This document shows positions 38,614 through 48,846 of a stretch of DNA of 64,000 nucleotides, in pieces. The stretch is from positions 2,852,001 through 2,916,000 of the forward strand of contig NZ_AP023287.1 of assembly GCF_014218295.1 (NCBI RefSeq), read 5' to 3'. The notes under the pieces were generated by a model, which was not told the DNA's origin, searched no databases, and saw only the letters and a list, made by a program, of their open reading frames with translations. The translations under genes and the position numbers were made by a program. Within the stretch, counting starts at the first letter, position 1; each line of letters opens with the position of its first letter. This stretch comes from Mycolicibacterium litorale. Its GTDB lineage: Bacteria > Actinomycetota > Actinomycetes > Mycobacteriales > Mycobacteriaceae.

Positions 38614-38642
38614 ACCATACGGGCGCCCCTTCGTTGTATGGT
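38614..38642 (+). promoter_or_regulatory. Operator-like inverted repeat over the FadD promoter
   Basis: ACCATAC (38614-38620) and GTATGGT (38636-38642) are perfect 7-base inverted arms separated by 15 bases. The right arm contains TATGGT, a -10 box six bases before the ATG at 38649. A repressor dimer bound here would block a leaderless promoter. The protein is unknown. Confidence 0.5.
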
Positions 38643-38648
38643 CTGCCC

Positions 38649-40313
38649 ATGACCGACGGCGCTGTGAGTTTCGATCTGTCGACCGTGTTCGCGACGGTGG
38701 CCGAAGCGGTCCCCGACAACACGTTCCTGGTGTGGCGGGACCGTCGGCTCACCTACGCCGAGGCGAACGCGCGCGTGGACGGTGTCGCGCACTACCTGGC
38801 CTCGGTCGGACTGGGCTGCCACACCGAACGGGACGGGCTGCGGGGCCACGAATCCGGACAGGACCACCTCGGGATCTACCTGCGCAACGGCAACGAGTAC
38901 CTCGAGGCGATGATCGGCAGCTACCGCGCCAGGGTCGCACCATTCAACGTCAACTACCGCTACGTCGGAGAGGAACTCACCTACCTGCTCACCGACGCCG
39001 ACGCCAAAGCCCTGGTCTACGGCGCGGAGTTCGCACCGCAGGTGGCGGCGGTGCGCGACCGGCTGCCGAACCTGCGGGTGCTGATCCAGGTCGCCGACGA
39101 TTCGGGTAACCAATTGCTGCCCGGCGCAGTCGATTACGAGTCCATCGTCACCACGGCCGCGCCCGCGGGCGGGATGCCGGTGCCGACCGGTGACGATCTG
39201 TACATCCTGTACACCGGCGGCACGACAGGTATGCCGAAGGGCGTGCTGTGGCGCCAGCACGACATCTTCCTGTCGTCGATGGGCGGCCGGCCGTTCGGCA
39301 GCGACACGTTCCTGTCGTCCTACGCCGAACTCGCCGAACGCGCGCGGGCCGGCGCCGGTGCGATGGGGCTGTTGATGATCCCGCCGTTCATGCACGGTGC
39401 CGCGCAGTGGGCGGCGTACAACGCGATCACGATGGGTGGCCGGCTGGCCATCCCCGACCACGTCGACCGGTTGCATCCCGACGACGCGCTGCGGGTCGCC
39501 GCCCGTGAGCGCGTGCTGAGCATCCCGATGGTGGGCGACGCGGTCGCCCGCCCGCTGCTCGACGAGATCGAGCGGGGTGACTACGACCTGTCGGGCCTGG
39601 TCACCCTCACCAACGGCGGGGCGCCGCTGTCGCCGACGGTGCGCGACCGCATCCTCGCGGCGCTGCCCCATGTGATCGTGATGGACGCCGTCGGGTCCTC
39701 GGAGTCCGGTGCGCAGATGAGCACCTACGCCAGCGCGGGCGCCGAGATCGAGGCGGCCACCTTCACCCCGCAGAGCGACACCGCGGTGATCGCCGCCGAC
39801 TTCAGCCGGGTGTTGCGGCCCGGTGAGGGCCAGGGCTGGCTGGCGCGCCGCGACCTGGTCCCGCTGGGCTATCTCGGCGACGAGGCCAAGACCGCCAAGA
39901 CCTTCCCCACCATCGACGGCGTCCGCTGGTCGGTGCCCGGTGACCGCGCGAACGTGTTGCCCGACGGCCGGATTCAGCTGCTGGGCCGCGACTCGGTCAC
40001 CATCAACTCCGGCGGCGAGAAGATCTTCGCCGAGGAGGTCGAACGGGCTGTCGCGGCCCATCCGGCCGTGTACGACGTCGTGGTGGTGGGCCGTCCGTCT
40101 GAGCGCTGGGGCAGTGAGGTCGTCGCGGTCGTGCAGTTCACCGACGGCGCGTCGGCCACCGACGAGGAACTGGCCGAGGTCTGCTCCCGGTCGATCGCCC
40201 GGTACAAGGTGCCGAAGGTGTTCATCCGGACCGAGAAGGTGGTGCGCTCGCCGGCGGGCAAGGCCGACTACCGCTGGGCGAAATCGGTGGCCACCGAGAG
40301 TGTGACCAGCTGA
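38649..40313 (+). CDS. Acyl-CoA synthetase (FadD type)
   Basis: A 554-residue adenylate-forming enzyme that activates a carboxylic acid to its CoA thioester. The P-loop motif YTGGTTGMPKGVLWR (about 192-206), the A5 motif region DAVGSSESGAQ, the A7/A8 part IPGDRANV-like WSVPGDRANV and the terminal A10 lysine in SPAGKADYRWAK are all present. It is most similar in layout to mycobacterial FadD3/FadD19-like synthetases acting on sterol side chains or fatty acids, but the substrate is open. It probably has its own leaderless promoter. Confidence 0.9.
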   Translation: MTDGAVSFDLSTVFATVAEAVPDNTFLVWRDRRLTYAEANARVDGVAHYLASVGLGCHTERDGLRGHESGQDHLGIYLRNGNEYLEAMIGSYRARVAPFNVNYRYVGEELTYLLTDADAKALVYGAEFAPQVAAVRDRLPNLRVLIQVADDSGNQLLPGAVDYESIVTTAAPAGGMPVPTGDDLYILYTGGTTGMPKGVLWRQHDIFLSSMGGRPFGSDTFLSSYAELAERARAGAGAMGLLMIPPFMHGAAQWAAYNAITMGGRLAIPDHVDRLHPDDALRVAARERVLSIPMVGDAVARPLLDEIERGDYDLSGLVTLTNGGAPLSPTVRDRILAALPHVIVMDAVGSSESGAQMSTYASAGAEIEAATFTPQSDTAVIAADFSRVLRPGEGQGWLARRDLVPLGYLGDEAKTAKTFPTIDGVRWSVPGDRANVLPDGRIQLLGRDSVTINSGGEKIFAEEVERAVAAHPAVYDVVVVGRPSERWGSEVVAVVQFTDGASATDEELAEVCSRSIARYKVPKVFIRTEKVVRSPAGKADYRWAKSVATESVTS

Positions 40314-40338: not shown

Positions 40339-42180
40339 GTGAGTGTCACCGGCCGAACGCAGGCGGTGCCCAACCGGCTGCTCAGGCTCCTGCTCCGCCC
40401 GACCGCACCTCCGTTGTGGCTCGGTGTGGCCGTGGCGGTCGGGTTCATCGGCGTCGAGACGCTCCTGGTGTTCCAGCTCAAGCGCGTGGCACCGGAGAAC
40501 GCGTTCGGGGCGGTGTTCCTGCTCGGTGTTCTCGTGGTGTCCGCAGGCTGGGGTTTCGGCCTGGCGATCGCCACCTCGCTGGCCAGTGCGCTGGTGTACG
40601 TGTACTTCCACCTGGAAGGCACCGACAGTCTGGCGCCCGCGGTGTCGGTCTTCCTGCCGCTGGCGCTGCTGACCAATCTGCTCGTCGGGCAGGCACGGCT
40701 GCGCGCCGCCGAGGCCGAACAACGCCGCGTGGAGGCCGACCTGTCCGCCGAACTCGCCCGCTCCACCCTCGGCGCCGGTGACCTGCGGGCCGCGCTCGAC
40801 AGCGCGGGCCGCCGGATCGCCGAGGTCCTGGAACTGCCGTTCGCGGTGCTCGGCCTCGGCGACCTGACGGCAGACGCCCGGTCCACCGCGGTGGCGCTGT
40901 GCGACGGTGCGGAACGGATCGGAACACTGCTGGTGCCGGCCGATCTGCCGGCCGACGCCCGCCGGCGCGTGCGGCGCATCCTGCCGTCGCTCGAGGCTCT
41001 GCTGGTGTCCACCCGGGACCGGCAGCAGATCAATGCGGCGCTCGCGGCCACCCATGCCGAGGTCAGCGCGCTGGCCGATCAGCAGGCCGCGTTGCGCCGC
41101 GTCGCCACGCTGGTGGCTCGGGGTGCCGAACCGGCGGAGGTGTATCCGGCCGCGGTGACCGAACTGGCCGCCGGACTCGGCGTCGAACACGTGACACTGG
41201 TCGCCTACGACGGTGACACCGACTGTGTGGTCCTCGCGGCCAGAGACAGCAGGGACACCGCGACCCTCAGCCCCGGTGAGCGGCTCAGCCTCGACGGGGA
41301 CAGCCTGACCCGGCGGATCCGGATGACCGGCCGGCCGGCCCGCATCGACGACTACGCCGGGCTCGGCGGGCCCATCCCCGCCCGGCTGCACGGGCTGCGG
41401 GTCCGTTCGGGCGTCGGCGCACCCGTGATCGTCGACGGACGGCTCCGTGGCGCCGTCCTCGTCGGTTCGGTCACCGCGGACCCGCTGCCGGCGGAGTGCG
41501 AGGCCAAGGTCGGCGACTTCGCCGACCTGATCGCCACCGCGATCGCCAACGCCGAGACCCGAGCCGAGCTCAAGGCCTCCCGCAGCCGCATCATCACCGC
41601 CGCCGACCATGCGCGCCGGAGCCTGGAACGCGATCTTCACGACGGCGCCCAGCAGCGGATCGTGTCGCTCGGCCTGGAGGTGCGCGCACTCGAGGCGTCG
41701 CTGCCTCCCGACGCCGAGCAGCAGCGGCACGCGATGTCACGGGTGGCCACCGGCCTGGCCGATCTCCACCACGATCTGCAGGAGCTGTCCCGTGGGATCC
41801 ATCCGGCGATCCTGTCCCGGGGCGGGCTGGGCCCGGCGATCAAGACGCTGACCCGGCGCTCCGCCGTCCCGGTCGAGCTCGACCTCGACGTCGACCGCCG
41901 GCTGCCGGAATCGGTCGAGGTGGCCGCGTACTACGTCGTCGCCGAGGCGTTGACCAATGCCGCCAAACATGCGCGCGCCTCGCAGGTGACGGTGCACGCG
42001 CGCGCCGGGGACCGCGCGCTGCACCTGGCTGTCGCCGACGACGGTGTGGGCGGCGCCGACGCATCGGCCGGCTCGGGGCTGATCGGCCTCAAAGACCGGG
42101 TCGAGGCGGTGTCGGGGCACCTGGAGGTCACCAGCGTCCACGGCGCCGGCACCACGTTGACGGTGGAGATTCGGCTCTGA
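40339..42180 (+). CDS. Membrane sensor histidine kinase, NarL/DesK (HisKA_3) type
   Basis: A 613-residue kinase. The N-terminus has three or four transmembrane helices (about 25-45, 55-75, 76-92, 100-117), then a helical linker, a GAF domain (about 250-405), a HisKA_3 dimerisation domain with phospho-acceptor histidine 434 (RSLERDLHDGAQQR) and a HATPase_c domain (about 525-613, with EALTNAAKHARA and DDGVGGAD motifs). No response regulator is encoded next to it, so its target is elsewhere or it acts on its neighbours. The stop is 33 bases before rsbQ. Confidence 0.9.
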   Translation: MSVTGRTQAVPNRLLRLLLRPTAPPLWLGVAVAVGFIGVETLLVFQLKRVAPENAFGAVFLLGVLVVSAGWGFGLAIATSLASALVYVYFHLEGTDSLAPAVSVFLPLALLTNLLVGQARLRAAEAEQRRVEADLSAELARSTLGAGDLRAALDSAGRRIAEVLELPFAVLGLGDLTADARSTAVALCDGAERIGTLLVPADLPADARRRVRRILPSLEALLVSTRDRQQINAALAATHAEVSALADQQAALRRVATLVARGAEPAEVYPAAVTELAAGLGVEHVTLVAYDGDTDCVVLAARDSRDTATLSPGERLSLDGDSLTRRIRMTGRPARIDDYAGLGGPIPARLHGLRVRSGVGAPVIVDGRLRGAVLVGSVTADPLPAECEAKVGDFADLIATAIANAETRAELKASRSRIITAADHARRSLERDLHDGAQQRIVSLGLEVRALEASLPPDAEQQRHAMSRVATGLADLHHDLQELSRGIHPAILSRGGLGPAIKTLTRRSAVPVELDLDVDRRLPESVEVAAYYVVAEALTNAAKHARASQVTVHARAGDRALHLAVADDGVGGADASAGSGLIGLKDRVEAVSGHLEVTSVHGAGTTLTVEIRL

Positions 42181-42213: not shown

Positions 42214-43020
42214 GTGTCGATGGATGTGCATTCCCGGAACAACGTCCGGATCGTGGGCCCCGAGCAGGGATCGACGATTGTGCTGGCGCACGGTTTCGGG
42301 TGCGACCAGAACCTGTGGCGGCGGGTGACCCCACGGCTGGCGCCGGAGTTCCGTGTCGTCCTGTTCGATCACGTGGGCTCGGGATCGTCGGATCCCGCGG
42401 CATGGGACGCCGACCGCTACTCGTCGCTGCAGGGCTACGCCGACGACATCCTGCTGCTCCTGCGCGAGCTCGACCTGCGCGACGTGGTGTTCGTCGGGCA
42501 CTCGGTGGCGGCGATGATGGGAGTGATCGCCGCCGGCGCGGATCCGAGCCGGTTCGCCAAGCTGGTGCTGCTCACCCCGTCCCCCTGTTACGTCGACGAC
42601 GGGGACTATCGGGGCGGGTTCTCCCGCGCGGACATCGACGAACTCCTCGAATCGATGGAGAGCAACTACCTCGGGTGGTCGCGGGCGATGGCGCCGACCA
42701 TCATGGGCGCCCCGGAGCAGCCCGAGTTGTCCGAGGAGTTGGCCGAGAGTTTCTGCCGCACCGACCCGGCCCGGGCGCGGGTATTCGCCCGGGCCACCTT
42801 CCTGTCCGACAACCGCGCCGATCTCGACCGCGTCCACGTCCCGACCCTGGTGGTGGAATGCGCGTACGACGCCATCGCCCCGCGGGGTGTGGGCGCGTTC
42901 GTCCACGACCACATCGGGGGCAGTGCGCTACTCACCCTCGAGACGACCGGTCACTGCCCTCATCTCAGCGCCCCGGAGGAAACCGCCGAGGCCATCGCCA
43001 CCTTCGCCCGGTCGACGTGA
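42214..43020 (+). CDS. rsbQ: RsbQ-type alpha/beta hydrolase, energy-stress activator
   Basis: A 268-residue alpha/beta hydrolase. It matches Bacillus subtilis RsbQ across its length: HGFGCDQNLW, VLFDHVGSGSSD, GYADDILLLLRELDL, FVGHSVAAMMG, PSPCY, GGF, FCRTDPARAR and GHCPHLSAPEE. The triad falls at serine 97, aspartate 219 and histidine 247, nearly the same numbers as in Bacillus (96, 219, 247). RsbQ makes or handles a small hydrophobic ligand that lets the PAS domain of RsbP switch on its phosphatase. The next gene is exactly such a PAS-PP2C protein, coupled by GTGA. The family is also related to plant karrikin and strigolactone receptors. GGAAG precedes the GTG start. Confidence 0.92.
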   Translation: MSMDVHSRNNVRIVGPEQGSTIVLAHGFGCDQNLWRRVTPRLAPEFRVVLFDHVGSGSSDPAAWDADRYSSLQGYADDILLLLRELDLRDVVFVGHSVAAMMGVIAAGADPSRFAKLVLLTPSPCYVDDGDYRGGFSRADIDELLESMESNYLGWSRAMAPTIMGAPEQPELSEELAESFCRTDPARARVFARATFLSDNRADLDRVHVPTLVVECAYDAIAPRGVGAFVHDHIGGSALLTLETTGHCPHLSAPEETAEAIATFARST

Positions 43021-44198
43021 ATCCCCACGAAACCAGCCAGCAGACAAGCGAATTCACGGTCGAGGACCTCTACGACCGGGCCCCGTGCGGCCACGTCGCG
43101 ACCGGGCCGGATCGGCGGATCCTGGCGGTGAACGACACCCTCGCCAGGTGGCTCGGCAGATCCCCTGAGGATTTGATCGGCACGCCGTTCACCGATCTGC
43201 TGACCGTCGGCTGCCGGATCCACTTCGAGACCCACTTCGCCCCCCTTCTGCATGTCGCCGGCGAGATTCGTGGGGTGACCGTCGATCTGCACGCGGCCGG
43301 CGGCACGCGCCTGCCCGCGCTGCTCGCCGCCAACGCCGAGACCGATGCGTCCGGAGCGCCGACCACCATCCGCTTCGCGCTGCAGGACGCCAGCGACCGC
43401 CGGGCCTACGAGCGTGAACTGCTGGCCGAGCGCCAGCGCGCCGAGCAGGAACGGGCGCGGGCGACGGCCCTGGCGCGCACGCTGAAGCGGTCGTTGCTGC
43501 CGCCCGCCCTGTCGCCGCCGGCCGGCCTGGAAGCCAGTGCCCATCTGCACGCCGCATCCGACGACGAGGTGGGCGGCGATTTCTACGACCTGTTCGCGCT
43601 GGGTCATGACCGGTCGGCGTTCTTCCTGGGTGACGTCTGCGGTAAGGGGGTCAGCGCCGCGACCGTCGCCTCACTCACCCGCTACACGCTGCGCGCGGCC
43701 GCGGTCTTCGACGACGATCCGGTGGCGGTGCTGCACAACCTCGACACCGTGCTGATCAACGAGTACGGCGCGGACGGGACGCATTTCTGCACCGTGGTGT
43801 TCGGCCTGCTGATCCGCGACGGCGACGGGTTCGACGTACACCTCGCCAGCGGCGGCCATCCACCGGCGCTGCTGCTCAACGCAGACGGTGCGGTCCGGAA
43901 GGTCAGCACCGAAGGCGGTCAAGCCGTGGGGATCTTCAGCAACGCCCGGTTCGCGTCGGCGCGGATCCACCTCGGCGCCGGTGACACCCTGGTCCTGTAC
44001 ACCGACGGGGTCACCGAGGCCCGGATCGGCCGCGGCACAGAGCGTTTCGACGATCACGATGCGCTGATTCAGCTGGCACGCGCGCACGCGCCAACCACCG
44101 CCACCGAGATCGTCGCGACGCTGCGACACCTGTTGGCCGAACTCGGCGACGGGGTGGAGGACGATGCGGCGGTACTCGCGCTCGGGGTGCCCCGGTAG
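43017..44198 (+). CDS. rsbP: RsbP-type PAS-PP2C (SpoIIE) serine phosphatase
   Basis: A 393-residue phosphatase with a PAS domain (about 15-125), a coiled-coil linker (about 128-155, ERELLAERQRAEQERARA) and a PP2C/SpoIIE domain (about 170-390). Metal-binding acidic motifs are GGDFYD (186-191), GDVCGKG (205-211), LYTDGVTEA and the terminal DDAAVLAL. Domain order and length agree with B. subtilis RsbP (403 residues), which dephosphorylates the anti-anti-sigma factor RsbV under energy stress. The start GTG overlaps the rsbQ stop. Its likely substrate is a STAS protein; one is encoded about 4 kb away at 48122-48568. Confidence 0.92.
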   Translation: MNPHETSQQTSEFTVEDLYDRAPCGHVATGPDRRILAVNDTLARWLGRSPEDLIGTPFTDLLTVGCRIHFETHFAPLLHVAGEIRGVTVDLHAAGGTRLPALLAANAETDASGAPTTIRFALQDASDRRAYERELLAERQRAEQERARATALARTLKRSLLPPALSPPAGLEASAHLHAASDDEVGGDFYDLFALGHDRSAFFLGDVCGKGVSAATVASLTRYTLRAAAVFDDDPVAVLHNLDTVLINEYGADGTHFCTVVFGLLIRDGDGFDVHLASGGHPPALLLNADGAVRKVSTEGGQAVGIFSNARFASARIHLGAGDTLVLYTDGVTEARIGRGTERFDDHDALIQLARAHAPTTATEIVATLRHLLAELGDGVEDDAAVLALGVPR

Positions 44199-44200
44199 TC

Positions 44201-45676
44201 ATGCTCCTGCACGACCTCGTGGCGTCGGCCGCCGCCGCCGATCCGCGGCGCCCCGCGGTCATCGGGCCGGACGGAGCGGCGGTGCCGTTCGACGAGTTCG
44301 ACCGGCAGATCCGTGCGGTCGCCGGATGGGTCGGCGCGCACAGCGCGCCCGGTGACCGCATCGCGGTCGTCGCCGACAACAGCACCGCCTACGCCCGGCT
44401 GTACTACGGGGTGCCCCGCGCCGGCCGGATCCTGACGTTGATCAATCAGCGGCTGCGGCCGGGCGAACAGTACGCCCAGTTGGCGCTCACCCGTCCCACT
44501 GTCGTCGTCGGCGATCCGGTTCACCTGGACCGGCTGACCGAGCTGCGCTCCGAGGTGCCGTCGGTCGTTCGTGTGGTGACGGCCGACGCCGCGGAGCTGA
44601 CCGCGGACCCGGCCGGCTCCGACGCCGCCCGGCCCGCGCCCGACGACCCGGCGTGGCTGCTGTTCACCAGCGGATCCACTGGCACACCGAAAGGCGTTGT
44701 GCACAGCCACCGGTCGGTGCTGGCCGCCGTGCGCGGTTCGGTCGTCGGGCGCGCCGTCGCACCCGGAGGGGTTTATCTGCTGCCGTTCCCGATGTGCCAT
44801 ATCGCCGGGTACAACATGCTGGTGCAGCACGCGGTCGGCGCGACGGTGGTGCTGGCCGCCCAGTTCCGCGCGGATGCGTTCGCGAAGGCCGTCCGCGACC
44901 ACGGCGTGACGGCGTGCTCCCTCGCCCCGACCATGTTGCACGCCCTGTTGACGCACCTAAAGGACACCGGTGCGACGCTTCCGACGCTTCGGTCGATCGC
45001 CTACGGTTCCGCCGCGATTCCCGCCGATCTGTTGCGCACCGCCCTCGACCGCCTCGACGTCGACTTCCATCAGGGCTACGGCATGACCGAGACCAGCGGC
45101 AACGTGACGTTCCTCGGTCCTGCGGAGCACCGCCGCGGCCTCGCCGGCCATCCCGAGATCCTGACCGCCGCCGGGATCCCCCATCCACAGGTCGAGGTGC
45201 GGATCGGTGCCGGCGGCGAGATCCTGGTGCGGGGCGCCCAGGTCGCGGCCCAGTACTGGCCCGACCGGCCCGCGGTGGACCGCGACGGCTGGCTGCCCAC
45301 CGGCGACGTGGGCAGGGTGGACCCCGAGGGCAGGTTGTATGTCGTGGACCGTCGAAAGGACATCGTCGTCACCGGCGGGGAGAACGTGTCCTCACGCGAA
45401 GTCGAGGACGCGCTGACCGCGCACGCCGACGTGGAGTCGGCGGCGGTGGTCGGGGTGCCCGACGAGTACTGGGGTGAGGCGGTCTGCGCGGTGGTGGTCG
45501 CGGTCGACGGTCGGCGTCCGGCCGCGGCGGACCTCATCGCGCACGTACGTGACCGGCTCACCGCGTTCAAACGGCCGCGCCATGTGCTGTTCGTCCAGCG
45601 GCTACCGCTGACGACGAACGGGAAGGTCGACAAGAACGCGGTCCGCCGGTACGCCCGCAGCGAACTTCGGGCGTAA
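44201..45676 (+). CDS. Class I adenylate-forming acyl-CoA ligase
   Basis: A 491-residue acyl-CoA synthetase. The P-loop LLFTSGSTGTPKGVVHSH (about 151-168), the A5 motif QGYGMTETSG (about 292-301), TGDVGRVDPEGRLYVVDR (A7-A8) and the catalytic lysine in TTNGKVDKNAV are present. It is shorter than most FadD proteins and close to the benzoate/long-chain acid ligase group. The ATG is two bases after the rsbP stop, so it is transcribed with the stress genes, which is unusual. Substrate unknown. Confidence 0.88.
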   Translation: MLLHDLVASAAAADPRRPAVIGPDGAAVPFDEFDRQIRAVAGWVGAHSAPGDRIAVVADNSTAYARLYYGVPRAGRILTLINQRLRPGEQYAQLALTRPTVVVGDPVHLDRLTELRSEVPSVVRVVTADAAELTADPAGSDAARPAPDDPAWLLFTSGSTGTPKGVVHSHRSVLAAVRGSVVGRAVAPGGVYLLPFPMCHIAGYNMLVQHAVGATVVLAAQFRADAFAKAVRDHGVTACSLAPTMLHALLTHLKDTGATLPTLRSIAYGSAAIPADLLRTALDRLDVDFHQGYGMTETSGNVTFLGPAEHRRGLAGHPEILTAAGIPHPQVEVRIGAGGEILVRGAQVAAQYWPDRPAVDRDGWLPTGDVGRVDPEGRLYVVDRRKDIVVTGGENVSSREVEDALTAHADVESAAVVGVPDEYWGEAVCAVVVAVDGRRPAAADLIAHVRDRLTAFKRPRHVLFVQRLPLTTNGKVDKNAVRRYARSELRA

Positions 45677-45692
45677 CCGGCGGGCCGTCTCG

Positions 45693-45947
45693 TCAGTTGC
45701 CGGTCTGCTCGGACTTCTGCCGCTCCTCGGCGACCTTCGCCGAGCCTCGGGCGGCCTCGGCTTCGGCTTCCTTCCTGGCGGCGTCGCGCTGAGCGTCGGC
45801 CTTGTCCTGCTGCGCCTGACCCTCGCGGTACAGGTCGTCGCGGCCGAGCACGGCGCCGGTGACTTCCTTGACCTTGCCCTTCACCCCTTCGACCGCGCCC
45901 TTGACGGCCTCTTCCGGCCCGGTGTTGCCGCTGTTGTCATCGGCCAT
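45693..45947 (-). CDS. CsbD-like general stress protein
   Basis: An 84-residue hydrophilic protein with the CsbD pattern GKVKEVTGAVLGRDDLYREGQAQQDKADAQ-like repeat organisation at about 24-53, flanked by a charged helical tail. B. subtilis CsbD is a SigB-dependent stress protein, and homologues are common in actinobacteria. The start ATG 45947 follows AGGAAGGAT. A SigF/SigB-like promoter (GGTTT-N17-GGGAAC) lies 53 bases upstream. It is convergent with the acyl-CoA ligase gene. Confidence 0.83.
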   Translation of the reverse strand: MADDNSGNTGPEEAVKGAVEGVKGKVKEVTGAVLGRDDLYREGQAQQDKADAQRDAARKEAEAEAARGSAKVAEERQKSEQTGN

Positions 45948-46000
45948 GATCGCTGGATCCTTCCTGTTCCCGGCCCCGCGTCGAGGCGTTCGGGAGGTCT

Positions 46001-46028
46001 GTTCCCTGAAGTGATCATGTGCCAAACC
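46001..46028 (-). promoter_or_regulatory. SigF/SigB-type promoter of the csbD-like gene
   Basis: On the minus strand GGTTT (46028-46024), 17 bases, GGGAAC (46006-46001). The -35 element is perfect; the -10 differs from GGGTA at one base and matches the Bacillus SigB GGGWAW form. It leaves a leader of about 45-50 bases. Confidence 0.55.
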
Positions 46029-46132
46029 TGGCGCCGCGCGGACGGTGATGTCACAACGATGACGAAATGCCGGGTTCCGTTTGCCGCCTTCGCTCGGCGG
46101 CTAACCGGGCCGCGAACGGAGGAACGGGGACC

Positions 46133-46756
46133 ATGGTGAAAGCGATAGTGCGGGCGGCCGGCCAGGTGGTCGAGGCGGCCGGGTCGACGGTGGGCATCCG
46201 GTGCGGCACCGAGGAACCACCCCATACGACGCAACGTCTTTCGGACTCTGTCGAGATTCGCCGTTACCAGCAACGCATCGCCGCCGAGACCACGGTGTCG
46301 GCCGACGAGGAATCGGCGCGCAACGAGGGTTTCCGCCGACTGGCGGGCTACATCTTCGGAAGCAACCACGGCGACACCGAGATCGCGATGACCGCGCCGG
46401 TGGCTCAGCAGCGTGGTACCACCATCGCGATGACGGCACCGGTGGCGCAGTCCAGCGGTGGCGGTGGCGACTGGACGATCCGGTTCTTCATGCCGTCCCG
46501 ATGGACGATGGACACCCTGCCGACTCCGAACGACGACCGCGTGCGCTTGACCGTCACGCCGGCCGAGACGGTCGCCGTGCTGAGGTTCTCCGGCGACCGC
46601 GGCGGACCGGCCGTCGCCCGCCGCACCGCAGAACTGCGAGACACCGAGTTCGAGCCCACCGGTGAACCCGCCGCATGGTTCTACGATCCGCCGTGGACGC
46701 TACCGTTCCGGCGACGCAACGAGATCGCGATACCGGTCCGACCGCGCACGGGCTGA
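46133..46756 (+). CDS. SOUL family heme-binding-like protein
   Basis: A 207-residue protein of the SOUL/HEBP family. EIRRYQQRIAAETTV (about 40-54), the repeated EIAMTAPVAQQ and TIAMTAPVAQS (about 83-104) and WTIRFFMPSRWTM (about 112-124) are the family hallmarks. Eukaryotic members bind heme or tetrapyrroles; bacterial function is not known. The ATG follows GGAGGAAC. It is divergent from the csbD-like gene and convergent with the sigma factor gene. It may belong to the local stress set, as an inference. Confidence 0.87.
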   Translation: MVKAIVRAAGQVVEAAGSTVGIRCGTEEPPHTTQRLSDSVEIRRYQQRIAAETTVSADEESARNEGFRRLAGYIFGSNHGDTEIAMTAPVAQQRGTTIAMTAPVAQSSGGGGDWTIRFFMPSRWTMDTLPTPNDDRVRLTVTPAETVAVLRFSGDRGGPAVARRTAELRDTEFEPTGEPAAWFYDPPWTLPFRRRNEIAIPVRPRTG

Positions 46757-46762
46757 TCCGGC

Positions 46763-47572
46763 TCAGCTCATCCCGTCACGCAACTGCTGGAGTGTCTTGG
46801 CGAGGATGCGCGAGACCTGCATCTGTGAGACGCCGATGCGCTCGGCGATCTGCGTCTGCGTCATCGACGCGAAGAACCTGAGGCTGATCACCGTGCGTTC
46901 GCGTTCGGACAACGCCGCCAGGAGCGGGCGCAGCGATTCCCGATCGGTGATGTGCTCCATGTCGCCGTCGACCGCGCCGAGCGTGTCGGCGAGTGAGCGC
47001 GTCGTATCGTCGGCCGAGGAGATCGGGCTGTCGATCGAGCGCAGACTGTAGGAGTCGCCGGCGACCAGGCACTCGACCACTTCCTGCCGATCCGCCCCCA
47101 GTTCGAGGGCCAGATCGGACGCGGTCGGGGCGCGCCCCAGCGACTGCGTCAACCGGGGTGTGGCCCTGGTGATCTGGACGTGCAGATCCTTGAGCCGACG
47201 TGGTACGTGCATGGCCCACCCGTTGTCCCGGAAGTGGCGCCGGATCTCGCCGAGCATCGTCGGCACCGCGAAGGACAGGAAATTGGCGCCGTTCTCCGGG
47301 TCGAACCGGTTGACCGCATGCATCAGGCCGACCCGCGCGATCTGCACGAGATCGTCGAGGTTCTCACCCTTGCGGTGGTAGCGGAACGCGATGTGGTCGG
47401 CCAGCGGCAGGCAACGGGTGACGATGCGTTCGCGCTGGCGGAGGAATTCCGGGGACTCGGCGGACAGCGCCGCCAGGAGCCGGAACATGTCGGGAACGTC
47501 TGCGTAGTCGTCTTGTGTGCGGGTCGACGGCTTGGCAACCGTCACCTGGGGGGTGTCGTCAATGATCGTCAT
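46763..47572 (-). CDS. sigF: Stress/sporulation-type sigma factor (SigF/SigB family)
   Basis: A 269-residue group 3 sigma factor. Region 2 contains CLPLADHIAFRYHRKGENLDDLVQIARVGL (about 54-83 without a full region 1), then NFLSFAVPTMLGEIRRHFRDNGW (about 97-119), VPRRLKDLH, region 3 and region 4 with the helix-turn-helix TQIAERIGVSQMQVSRILAK (about 241-260). It resembles M. tuberculosis SigF (YADVPEMF-type N-terminus: here YADVPDMFRLL) but may be a second paralogue, since no anti-sigma rsbW (usfX) lies upstream. GGAAGGA precedes the ATG. The symbol is by family and the genome may have another sigF. Confidence 0.85.
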   Translation of the reverse strand: MTIIDDTPQVTVAKPSTRTQDDYADVPDMFRLLAALSAESPEFLRQRERIVTRCLPLADHIAFRYHRKGENLDDLVQIARVGLMHAVNRFDPENGANFLSFAVPTMLGEIRRHFRDNGWAMHVPRRLKDLHVQITRATPRLTQSLGRAPTASDLALELGADRQEVVECLVAGDSYSLRSIDSPISSADDTTRSLADTLGAVDGDMEHITDRESLRPLLAALSERERTVISLRFFASMTQTQIAERIGVSQMQVSRILAKTLQQLRDGMS

Positions 47573-48121
47573 CGCGGGTCCTTCCGGACTCGGTGCGGAC
47601 GCGAAGTCAACGCCGTTGGGACGGCGCGTGCCTCACTGTTCCGGGAGACGGAGAACTGCTGTCACGCTGGGCGCTACACCACGCGGAGGACATCGGCGGT
47701 AATGAGAGACCGTTGGCTCGATCGGACTATCGCCTACAGCGGTCCGCTTTGCACTAAACGGTGGCGCCTCCCGGACGGGATGTGTGTCACTCTACCCCCT
47801 CGACGCGGCTACGTCGCGGTTGTGATCCCGGAAGTTCCGAGATGTGCGCAATCAGTCGTCGCCGCGGCTGCGGCGGCCGGAATATGCGGACACGTCAACG
47901 GGAGTCACAGCAAAACCCCAGGTAGAGGCCTTCCTGAGAACCTCCTAAACCTTGTAGTAATACGACGCATTCCGTAGTAATCTGCGTCACAGGTTGAGAA
48001 GACCAGCCAGCGGCGAGGTCATTCGCGTAAGGCTTGCCGGCCATCCCCGGCGGCGCGCAAGCTGTGGTTTCGCGGTGGCCGCAACACCCATCGGGGCATC
48101 ACAATCGAGGGAGTCCCACCC
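47573..48121. other. Gene-free divergent region between sigF and the STAS gene
   Basis: These 549 bases hold no credible coding frame on either strand. The right half is less GC-rich, notably 47900-48000. It holds paired GTAGTAAT repeats and an inverted repeat (see 47954-47988). No SigF-type promoter was found by eye on either strand. Both divergent genes must have their control sequences here, so regulatory RNA or several operators are possible. Confidence 0.6.
47954..47988. repeat. Direct repeat GTAGTAAT and overlapping dyad
   Basis: GTAGTAAT occurs at 47954-47961 and 47974-47981, exactly 20 bases (two helical turns) apart. An overlapping inverted pair GACGCA (47964-47969) and TGCGTC (47983-47988) is separated by 13 bases. 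It sits about 135 bases before the STAS gene. This is a regulator-site candidate with no known binder. Confidence 0.5.
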
Positions 48122-48568
48122 ATGATGGACATCGGCACCGTCCGGGTTTTCCGCCCCGACCCATCGGCATCCGAGGCGCCCCAACGGTGCGGCCGGGCCG
48201 TCTTCTCGATCCGATCACTCTCGCCGACACTTTCGGTGGTCACCGCGGTCGGCGACGTGGACGCCACCAACGGCCGCGACCTCGGCCGCTACGTCGAGCG
48301 CCACACGGCGACCGCGTCGCAGTTGATCGTGGATCTGAGCGGCGTCGCGTTCTTCGGTTCGCAGGGTTTCAGCGCACTGCACTACATGAGTGTGGGCTGC
48401 GCGCGGATCGACGTGGACTGGGTGATCGTGCCGGGCAGGGAGGTGCGCCGGTTGCTGCGCATCTGCGATCCCCAGGGTGAACTACCCCTCGCCGACAGTG
48501 TCGAGTCCGCACGCGGACGGCTCGACCGGGTCGCGCGTCGGCGGCAACCGATCTCCTGGGCGGGTTGA
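48122..48568 (+). CDS. STAS-domain anti-anti-sigma factor (RsbV type)
   Basis: A 148-residue protein with an N-terminal extension (about 1-28) and a STAS domain (about 30-125). LSVVTAVGDVDATN matches strand 1 and the loop of RsbV-type antagonists. The phosphorylatable serine sits in DLSGVAFFGSQGFSAL (serine about 80), where the usual DS is GS. When dephosphorylated, such a protein sequesters an anti-sigma kinase and frees the sigma factor. It is divergent from the SigF-type gene and is a plausible substrate of the RsbP phosphatase. The start may be either of two adjacent ATG codons; GAGGGAG precedes them. Confidence 0.85.
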   Translation: MMDIGTVRVFRPDPSASEAPQRCGRAVFSIRSLSPTLSVVTAVGDVDATNGRDLGRYVERHTATASQLIVDLSGVAFFGSQGFSALHYMSVGCARIDVDWVIVPGREVRRLLRICDPQGELPLADSVESARGRLDRVARRRQPISWAG

Positions 48569-48618
48569 GCCGGACCCCAGCCCTGAGATCAGTTGCGCCG
48601 GCGAGGGTTTCGGCGCCG

Positions 48619-48846
48619 TCAAGTGGCGAGCTCGACCTCGTAGCACACAGCGTACCGCCGGAAGTTGGGCGTCGGACGGAACAGATGGCCCGCGTCGGGC
48701 GACCACGTCACCACCCGCAACAGGCGCTTGTACGAGGGCAGTTGCTTGGCCACCAGTTCGGCCAGCGCAGCGCGGGGTGAATACCCGCAACGATCGTCAA
48801 CGTCCTTCGGGAGCAGCACATCCCACATGGTTTCCTCGAACCGCAT
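48619..48846 (-). CDS. Small hypothetical protein
   Basis: A 75-residue protein starting MRFEETMWDVLLPKDVDD and ending RRYAVCYEVELAT. It is well balanced in composition and unlikely to be noise, with a GYSPRAALAELVAKQLPSYKRLL helix. The ATG at 48846 was chosen over a GTG seven codons upstream. No family recognised. It is convergent with the STAS gene, 50 bases away. Confidence 0.55.
   Translation of the reverse strand: MRFEETMWDVLLPKDVDDRCGYSPRAALAELVAKQLPSYKRLLRVVTWSPDAGHLFRPTPNFRRYAVCYEVELAT

Follow-up and report, generated by a model that had tools for sequence, protein, structure and literature searches.

We found that a gene pair of the Bacillus subtilis RsbQ-RsbP type (an alpha/beta hydrolase followed by a PAS-PP2C phosphatase; jointly RsbQP) lies close to a second SigF-type sigma factor gene, here named sigF2, in Mycolicibacterium litorale, and that such pairs recur beside SigF paralogs in other genomes of the genus. 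The locus was examined in a 64,000-nucleotide stretch of contig NZ_AP023287.1 (positions 2,852,001 to 2,916,000 of the forward strand; hereafter the window), and coordinates are those of the window unless a genome position is given. The mycobacterial RsbQ-RsbP pair is already described in outline; what we consider worth testing is that it recurs close to orphan SigF paralogs, and no report linking SigF paralogs to RsbQP was found in the open literature. We lean toward a reading in which the RsbQP arm dephosphorylates a STAS antagonist and so frees a SigF-type sigma factor, the local candidates being the STAS protein at 48122-48568 and sigF2. The genes concerned are the following.

42214..43020, + strand: RsbQ-type alpha/beta hydrolase; start GTG 42214 or, likelier, ATG 42220; stop TGA 43018-43020
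43017..44198, + strand: RsbP-type PAS-helix-PP2C (SpoIIE) phosphatase; its GTG start overlaps the RsbQ stop
46763..47572, - strand: second SigF-type sigma factor, sigF2 (NCBIfam SigF 459 bits, cut-off 372)
48122..48568, + strand: STAS anti-sigma-antagonist-like protein, candidate RsbP substrate (Pfam STAS 41.8 bits)

An initial annotation of this DNA, made from its letters only, had placed a SigF-type sigma gene 2.6 kb and a STAS gene 4 kb from the pair, and the distances from the RsbP stop agree with it (2.56 kb to sigF2, 3.9 kb to the STAS gene). The product of sigF2 is 61% identical to the genome's other SigF (G000:C1:1385379), which has an RsbW gene just upstream. A genome survey, also proposed at that stage, located RsbQ in 44 of 148 same-genus genomes, the window genome included, when matches with E values up to 1e-40 were accepted. 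Besides the window, the genus set holds 44 loci from 43 genomes, G140 being represented twice. A SigF-type gene was found within 8 kb of RsbQ at 12 of these 44 loci, and at 11 of the 37 that have 8 kb of sequence on both sides. Arithmetic from 45 sigma matches in 15 genomes, a 16 kb span and about 5.7 Mb gives an expectation of approximately 0.4 linked loci against the 12 observed, a figure that is on the high side because the 15 genomes were chosen mostly for having a linked sigma gene. The linked genes are arranged in different ways. In the window and at L157-L160, the sigma gene lies 2.6-4.6 kb and the STAS gene 4.0-6.0 kb downstream; a divergent arrangement (L174-L178) has the sigma gene 0.9 kb upstream, a co-directional one (L179, L187) has it 2.1 kb downstream, and at L193 it lies 4.5 kb downstream on the other strand.

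We assessed the relationships of these sigma factors in a tree of 36 rows, taken from among the 45 matches. The linked sigmas form three well-supported clades together with the single, long-branched L193, and the linked label requires three changes on the tree, two of which are forced by well-supported branches; the three changes may alternatively represent a single gain plus two losses. In all 15 genomes searched, one sigF gene has RsbW directly upstream, and these 15 genes group together (support 94/92). Because the label "canonical" was given by the upstream RsbW, the contrast between canonical and linked genes holds partly by definition, and its independent part is the grouping of the RsbW-preceded genes in the tree. 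The window-type sigma was found in six of the 148 genomes, all six of which have RsbQ (hypergeometric probability 0.0005, uncorrected for kinship).

The identity of the hydrolase was examined by sequence and by predicted fold. Its top match among solved structures was B. subtilis RsbQ (PDB 1wom; phmmer, 283 bits, E 1.6e-83; 282 matched sequences), a likeness that this E value places far beyond chance, followed by olei00960 and the plant KAI2/D14 receptors. When the predicted model (mean predicted local distance difference test, pLDDT, 93.1; 25 sequences in the alignment) was compared with Foldseek, 1wom again ranked first, at 1.5 A and 48% identity. The catalytic Ser 97, Asp 219 and His 247 are unchanged in all 25 aligned members. 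This numbering runs from GTG 42214; counted from ATG 42220, the likelier start because the family consensus begins at Met 3, the triad is 95/217/245. Pfam by itself places the protein just in generic hydrolase families. Taken together, sequence, modeled fold and triad assign the hydrolase to RsbQ, in accordance with the annotation, which had named an RsbQ-type hydrolase with the triad S97/D219/H247 and had asked for a structural comparison with RsbQ.

The product of 43017-44198 carries PAS and SpoIIE (PP2C) domains in Pfam, and its model (mean pLDDT 84.7; 45 sequences) consists of the PAS domain, one 33-residue helix at 128-160 that joins the two domains (pLDDT approximately 70-80 there) and the PP2C domain; the order of the PAS and PP2C domains is the one that had been proposed for it. 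According to the portion of PMC3183031 used here, an RsbQ-PAS module comprises rsbQ directly 5' of a protein with PAS as its most N-terminal domain, the arrangement found in the window, and, joining PAS to the output domain, a stretch of 21 or more residues with coiled-coil potential. Compared with B. subtilis RsbP (row P0121), 96 of 362 aligned residues are identical (27%), and the five metal-site Asp residues of the PP2C domain (207, 225, 348, 393 and 394 in B. subtilis) are kept; all five are present in 116 of 116 actinobacterial RsbP rows, window included. The nearest solved structure, by sequence and by model, is the RsbU domain of Rv1364c. The same portion of PMC3183031 lists C10, L13, L48, Q53, F55, C56, Y59, E72 and P86 as marks of RsbQ-partnered PAS domains. 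Window RsbP has C, V, L, R, H, F, H, G and P at these positions, eight of nine fitting the published residue classes as we matched classes to positions from the paper's text. Judged by sequence, the protein belongs to the RsbP family and departs from it at one notable residue (E72 to Gly).

The two genes are closely coupled. It was noted that the RsbQ stop and the RsbP start share GTGA, and the open reading frame coordinates and codons bear out this overlap as first described, GTG 43017 being a possible RsbP start. RsbP lies directly 3' of RsbQ at 117 of 117 loci (102 distinct, window included), counted by a DNA-level neighborhood search over those loci whose downstream sequence exceeds 1.5 kb, and an in-frame start that allows an NTGA overlap is present at 104 of the 121 loci measured. 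Among the 43 other genus genomes that gave a match, RsbQ identity is 64-88% in 42 and 42% in G106. A scan of named genomes gave 187 RsbQ loci, the best 80 of which were kept; these best 80 are 67-88% identical and come from mycobacteria, Williamsia, Nocardia, Rhodococcus, Streptomyces, Amycolatopsis, Lentzea and others. The named (80) and genus (44) sets have 16 loci with identical RsbQ stretches in common, so counts from the two sets are not additive. The RsbQ-RsbP pair is ordinary for Actinobacteria. Among loci with enough flank, 20 of 39 in the genus set and 33 of 67 in the named set have a SigF-type, STAS, RsbW-like or further PP2C gene within 5 kb, both raw counts without a background.

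Several individual loci stood out in this survey. In another mycobacterial group (L043, L044, L051, L052, L064, L068, L163 and L166-L168), RsbQP lies inside a partner-switching cluster, with RsbW-like and PP2C matches on the opposite strand 2-4 kb off, followed by STAS and a further PP2C gene. The locus of G106 (L200), on a short contig, holds the more distant RsbQ relative and has an RsbW-like match 0.7 kb upstream. L198 and L199 each show the RsbQ match as two pieces that overlap, and these copies may therefore be broken or misassembled.

We next considered which partners could connect RsbP to a sigma factor. A plausible, still putative substrate of RsbP is the STAS protein at 48122-48568; a Ser occupies the aligned phosphosite in the window and the six relatives compared (7/7). 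A genome-wide HATPase_c_2 search gave no RsbW-like gene at the sigF2 locus, the match at genome position 2893923 being a histidine kinase, and the linked RsbW gene that marks SigF/SigB partner-switching loci was not found within 8 kb at any of the 11 sigma-linked RsbQP loci with full flanks. Elsewhere, the window genome holds eight SpoIIE-type phosphatases, 14 STAS matches and a number of RsbW-like kinases, and partners are therefore available in trans. If the scheme below is right, the lack of a linked anti-sigma gene means that the kinase has to come from another place in the genome.

The interval between sigF2 and the STAS gene contains a block of approximately 45 bases (47954-47998, - strand) with an inverted repeat, GACGCA-N13-TGCGTC, and two ATTACTAC copies. 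The block is almost invariant in seven aligned genomes (the window and six relatives) while its flanks vary, a search of the genome that allowed up to two mismatches gave one occurrence of a looser form of the repeat, and the block is possibly an operator. No Rfam match was obtained up to E 0.1 across 45600-48700.

Between RsbQP and sigF2 lies a small gene with an upstream site of interest for the output of the sigma factor.

45693..45947, - strand: CsbD-like / microaggregate-binding protein 1, likely start ATG 45947 (NCBIfam MBP-1 113.9 bits, cut-off 80)
46002..46028, - strand: SigF-type promoter-like site GGTTT-N17-GGGAA, 5' of the CsbD-like gene

The MBP-1 match begins at residue 27 of the longer open reading frame, and the Pfam CsbD score is 31.6 bits, under its cut-off of 40. 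GGTTT-N17-GGGAA precedes the CsbD-like gene in 10 of 10 rows from seven distinct genomes; the CsbD-like gene of G042 has GTTT-N17-GGGAA, which makes eight of eight distinct genomes with a SigF-type site. By its sequence, the site resembles those of M. smegmatis SigF-dependent genes, for which GTTT-N15/16-GGGTA, GTTT-N17-GGGTA and GTTT-N15/16-GGGAA are given in the part of PMC4694148 consulted; GTTT-N17-GGGAA itself was not found among the sites in that part. The pattern GGTTT-N15-18-GGGWA occurs 32 times in the genome versus six times for the reversed pattern. The divergent-type sigma gene is preceded by GTTT-N16-GGGTA at five of five RsbQP-linked and two of two unlinked loci, and this site of its own in 7/7 (L174-L178, L277, L279) suggests that the divergent-type paralog activates itself. 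A motif on either strand was found in six of 45 regions upstream of RsbQ, whereas 45 control stretches taken from inside RsbQ had none. Across the entire window, GTTT-N15-18-GGGTA gave two sites, neither at the RsbQP locus, and in the window lineage no strict SigF-type motif was found 5' of the kinase, ligases, SOUL gene or STAS gene.

The scheme that we favor builds on the protein families, intact catalytic residues, pairing, paralog closeness and promoter-like sites observed directly here, and takes its biochemical steps by analogy from B. subtilis and M. smegmatis. RsbQ would bind RsbP at its PAS domain, and a signal that the RsbQ active site holds or makes would pass along the linking helix and switch on the PP2C domain. 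The phosphatase would then take the phosphate off the Ser of a STAS antagonist, and the dephosphorylated antagonist would capture an RsbW-type anti-sigma factor, freeing a SigF-type sigma factor. From their position only, we infer that the STAS protein at 48122-48568 and sigF2 are the RsbQP targets; the CsbD-like gene at 45693-45947 would be among the genes transcribed with sigF2. A more specific form of this scheme is offered as a tentative possibility: RsbQP would be an input arm dedicated to a second, orphan SigF-type sigma factor, and separate lineages would each have joined RsbQP with a different SigF paralog that lacks a nearby anti-sigma kinase of its own.

A number of observations weigh against these proposals. 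Most genus loci with 8 kb on both sides (26 of 37) have no SigF-type gene within 8 kb, and the linked loci and the 6/6 co-occurrence are not independent counts because the genomes are related. No RsbW-like gene turned up within 8 kb at any of the 11 linked loci that have full flanks. Two of the seven divergent-type genomes, G040 and G133, carry the sigma factor (86% and 83% identical) with its promoter site kept and have no RsbQ at the 1e-40 threshold. In G042 a STAS-sigma-CsbD-ligase-kinase island stands without RsbQP, which is on another contig, an arrangement that fits action in trans and equally fits independence of sigma and RsbQP. In the window lineage the strict pattern gave no SigF-type site 5' of rsbQ or sigF2. 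The window STAS protein is only weakly similar to solved STAS proteins (TM1442, E 0.0027; RsfB, E 0.48), and has Gly before the phosphosite Ser where TM1442 has Asp. Finally, residue 86 of RsbP is Gly where B. subtilis has the essential E72, whose change to Ala is null in that species. The equivalent position is Gly in 111 of 116 actinobacterial rows, all beside RsbQ, and we therefore regard it as a lineage difference and not a loss.

A further question is whether RsbQP instead acts on the canonical SigF through an RsfB-like STAS protein encoded elsewhere, with sigF2 incidental or sharing the regulon. The absence of a nearby SigF paralog at most RsbQP loci would be expected under this possible, if doubtful, alternative, as would the RsbW-preceded sigF gene in each of the 15 genomes, these 15 grouping together, and the 14 STAS matches and several RsbW-like kinases of the window genome. 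Parts of two papers point in the same direction: a PP2C phosphatase activates M. smegmatis RsfB (PMC10950880), and RsbPQX acting on SigF has been suggested (PMC8115616). However, SigF paralogs from three sigma clades lie close to RsbQP, well above the arithmetic expectation. The module may also be a hydrolase-PAS-phosphatase sensor whose STAS partner controls something besides a sigma factor, since RsbQ-PAS modules are joined to other output domains in other bacteria (PMC3183031, in part) and a number of loci have a nearby STAS gene and no sigma gene; we consider this unlikely, because a SigF-type sigma is a recurrent neighbor in the window lineage and two others and SigF-type sites adjoin the sigma gene in two of the three lineages. 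It is highly improbable that RsbQ is a metabolic esterase and RsbP an unrelated phosphatase, neighbors by chance. Alpha/beta hydrolases are common and Pfam yields generic families alone, but the pairing holds at every locus counted, a stop/start overlap is possible at most loci measured, RsbQ is the top match by sequence and fold, and the residues of RsbQ-partnered PAS domains appear largely kept.

The pair is flanked in the window by further genes on the same strand.

38634..40313, + strand: acyl-CoA synthetase, 5' of the kinase (NCBIfam PRK07798 717 bits, cut-off 543)
40339..42180, + strand: membrane histidine kinase with DUF4118, GAF and HisKA_3 (Pfam), probably on the same transcript
44201..45676, + strand: acyl-CoA ligase (Pfam AMP-binding), probably on the same transcript

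Along ligase, histidine kinase, rsbQ, rsbP and ligase, the gaps between the longest open reading frames are 25, 33, -4 and 2 bases, and the five genes likely form an operon. The kinase and a ligase had been noted beside the pair from the outset, although two ligases, and not one, flank the set. We assessed the further suggestion that the ligases make or activate a lipophilic ligand read by RsbQ, ligase and RsbQP forming one signaling unit. The close spacing in the window favors it, as does the ligase that stays beside RsbQP in G095, G014, G052 and G028. However, a ligase adjoins RsbQP at just four of 40 genus loci, L158 keeps RsbQP, the CsbD-like gene, sigma and STAS without a ligase or kinase within 9 kb, and in G042 the ligase and kinase remain together without RsbQP. 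The ligand-making idea is therefore without support beyond position; we regard such a unit as very unlikely and rejected the ligase as ligand maker within the module. The histidine kinase adjoins RsbQP at just two of 42 genus loci and was likewise rejected as a fixed partner. Kinase and ligase are not part of the conserved RsbQP module. In the G042 island (L300, 7021-12641), the ligase comes directly after the kinase.

Comparison with known systems places the window pair in a described family. It shares with B. subtilis RsbQ-RsbP the gene order, the hydrolase triad and fold, the PAS-helix-PP2C order, the PP2C metal-site Asp residues and apparently most class-specific PAS residues. It differs in a shorter linking region with a large alignment gap at that point and 27% identity for RsbP, in the Gly at essential E72 and in its place beside a second SigF-type sigma gene. 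The plant KAI2/D14 receptors are close solved relatives of the window hydrolase and likewise present a hydrolase serving as receptor; they act via plant partners and are not known to use a PP2C phosphatase.

Homologs of rsbQ and rsbP, the same pair as in the window, were reported in several slow- and rapid-growing mycobacteria, with an RsbPQX route to SigF suggested for species lacking other routes (PMC8115616, 2021, in part, citing de Been et al. 2011); linked SigF paralogs are not mentioned in the portion of its main-text discussion of RsbQP consulted. The view of the initial annotation that RsbQP would be a new kind of signal entry in mycobacteria is accordingly not supported. A lack of phosphatase inputs in mycobacterial SigF control is not supported either, as the PP2C phosphatase RsfR activates RsfB in M. 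smegmatis and Rv1364c carries PAS and PP2C domains (PMC10950880, in part). The RsfS-RsfR system and Rv1364c resemble the window pair in that a PP2C phosphatase takes part, or is proposed to take part, in SigF partner switching, and Rv1364c also shares the PAS domain and supplies, in its RsbU domain, the closest solved structure to RsbP. Unlike window RsbP, M. smegmatis RsfR is governed by a receiver domain and a histidine kinase, and Rv1364c fuses kinase and STAS domains; the portion of PMC10950880 consulted mentions no RsbQ partner for either. A predicted RsbP-RsbQ complex has been reported (PMC12143880, in part). According to the part of PMC3183031 consulted, the RsbQ-PAS module occurs in diverse bacteria, a small molecule is proposed to enter or be made by the hydrolase, and the target was known in B. 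subtilis only. Energy depletion, the signal first assumed for the window pair, is not supported, as the cue is called mysterious there even for B. subtilis. What stands of the original interpretation is RsbQP near a SigF-type sigma factor; its novelty, the ligase and the energy signal are not supported.

The locus brings RsbQP, a SigF paralog, a STAS gene and a CsbD-like gene with a promoter-like site together within 7 kb, an assembly that recurs in relatives, and it offers a compact place for finding a second RsbQ-PAS target and searching for the ligand. If the orphan-sigma reading is true, these bacteria would have a parallel stress regulon, the CsbD-like gene included, that is separate from canonical SigF and gated by a hydrolase sensing a small molecule. 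Two SigF-type circuits may thus operate in some mycobacteria, and the SigF regulons of those species would then have to be read differently.

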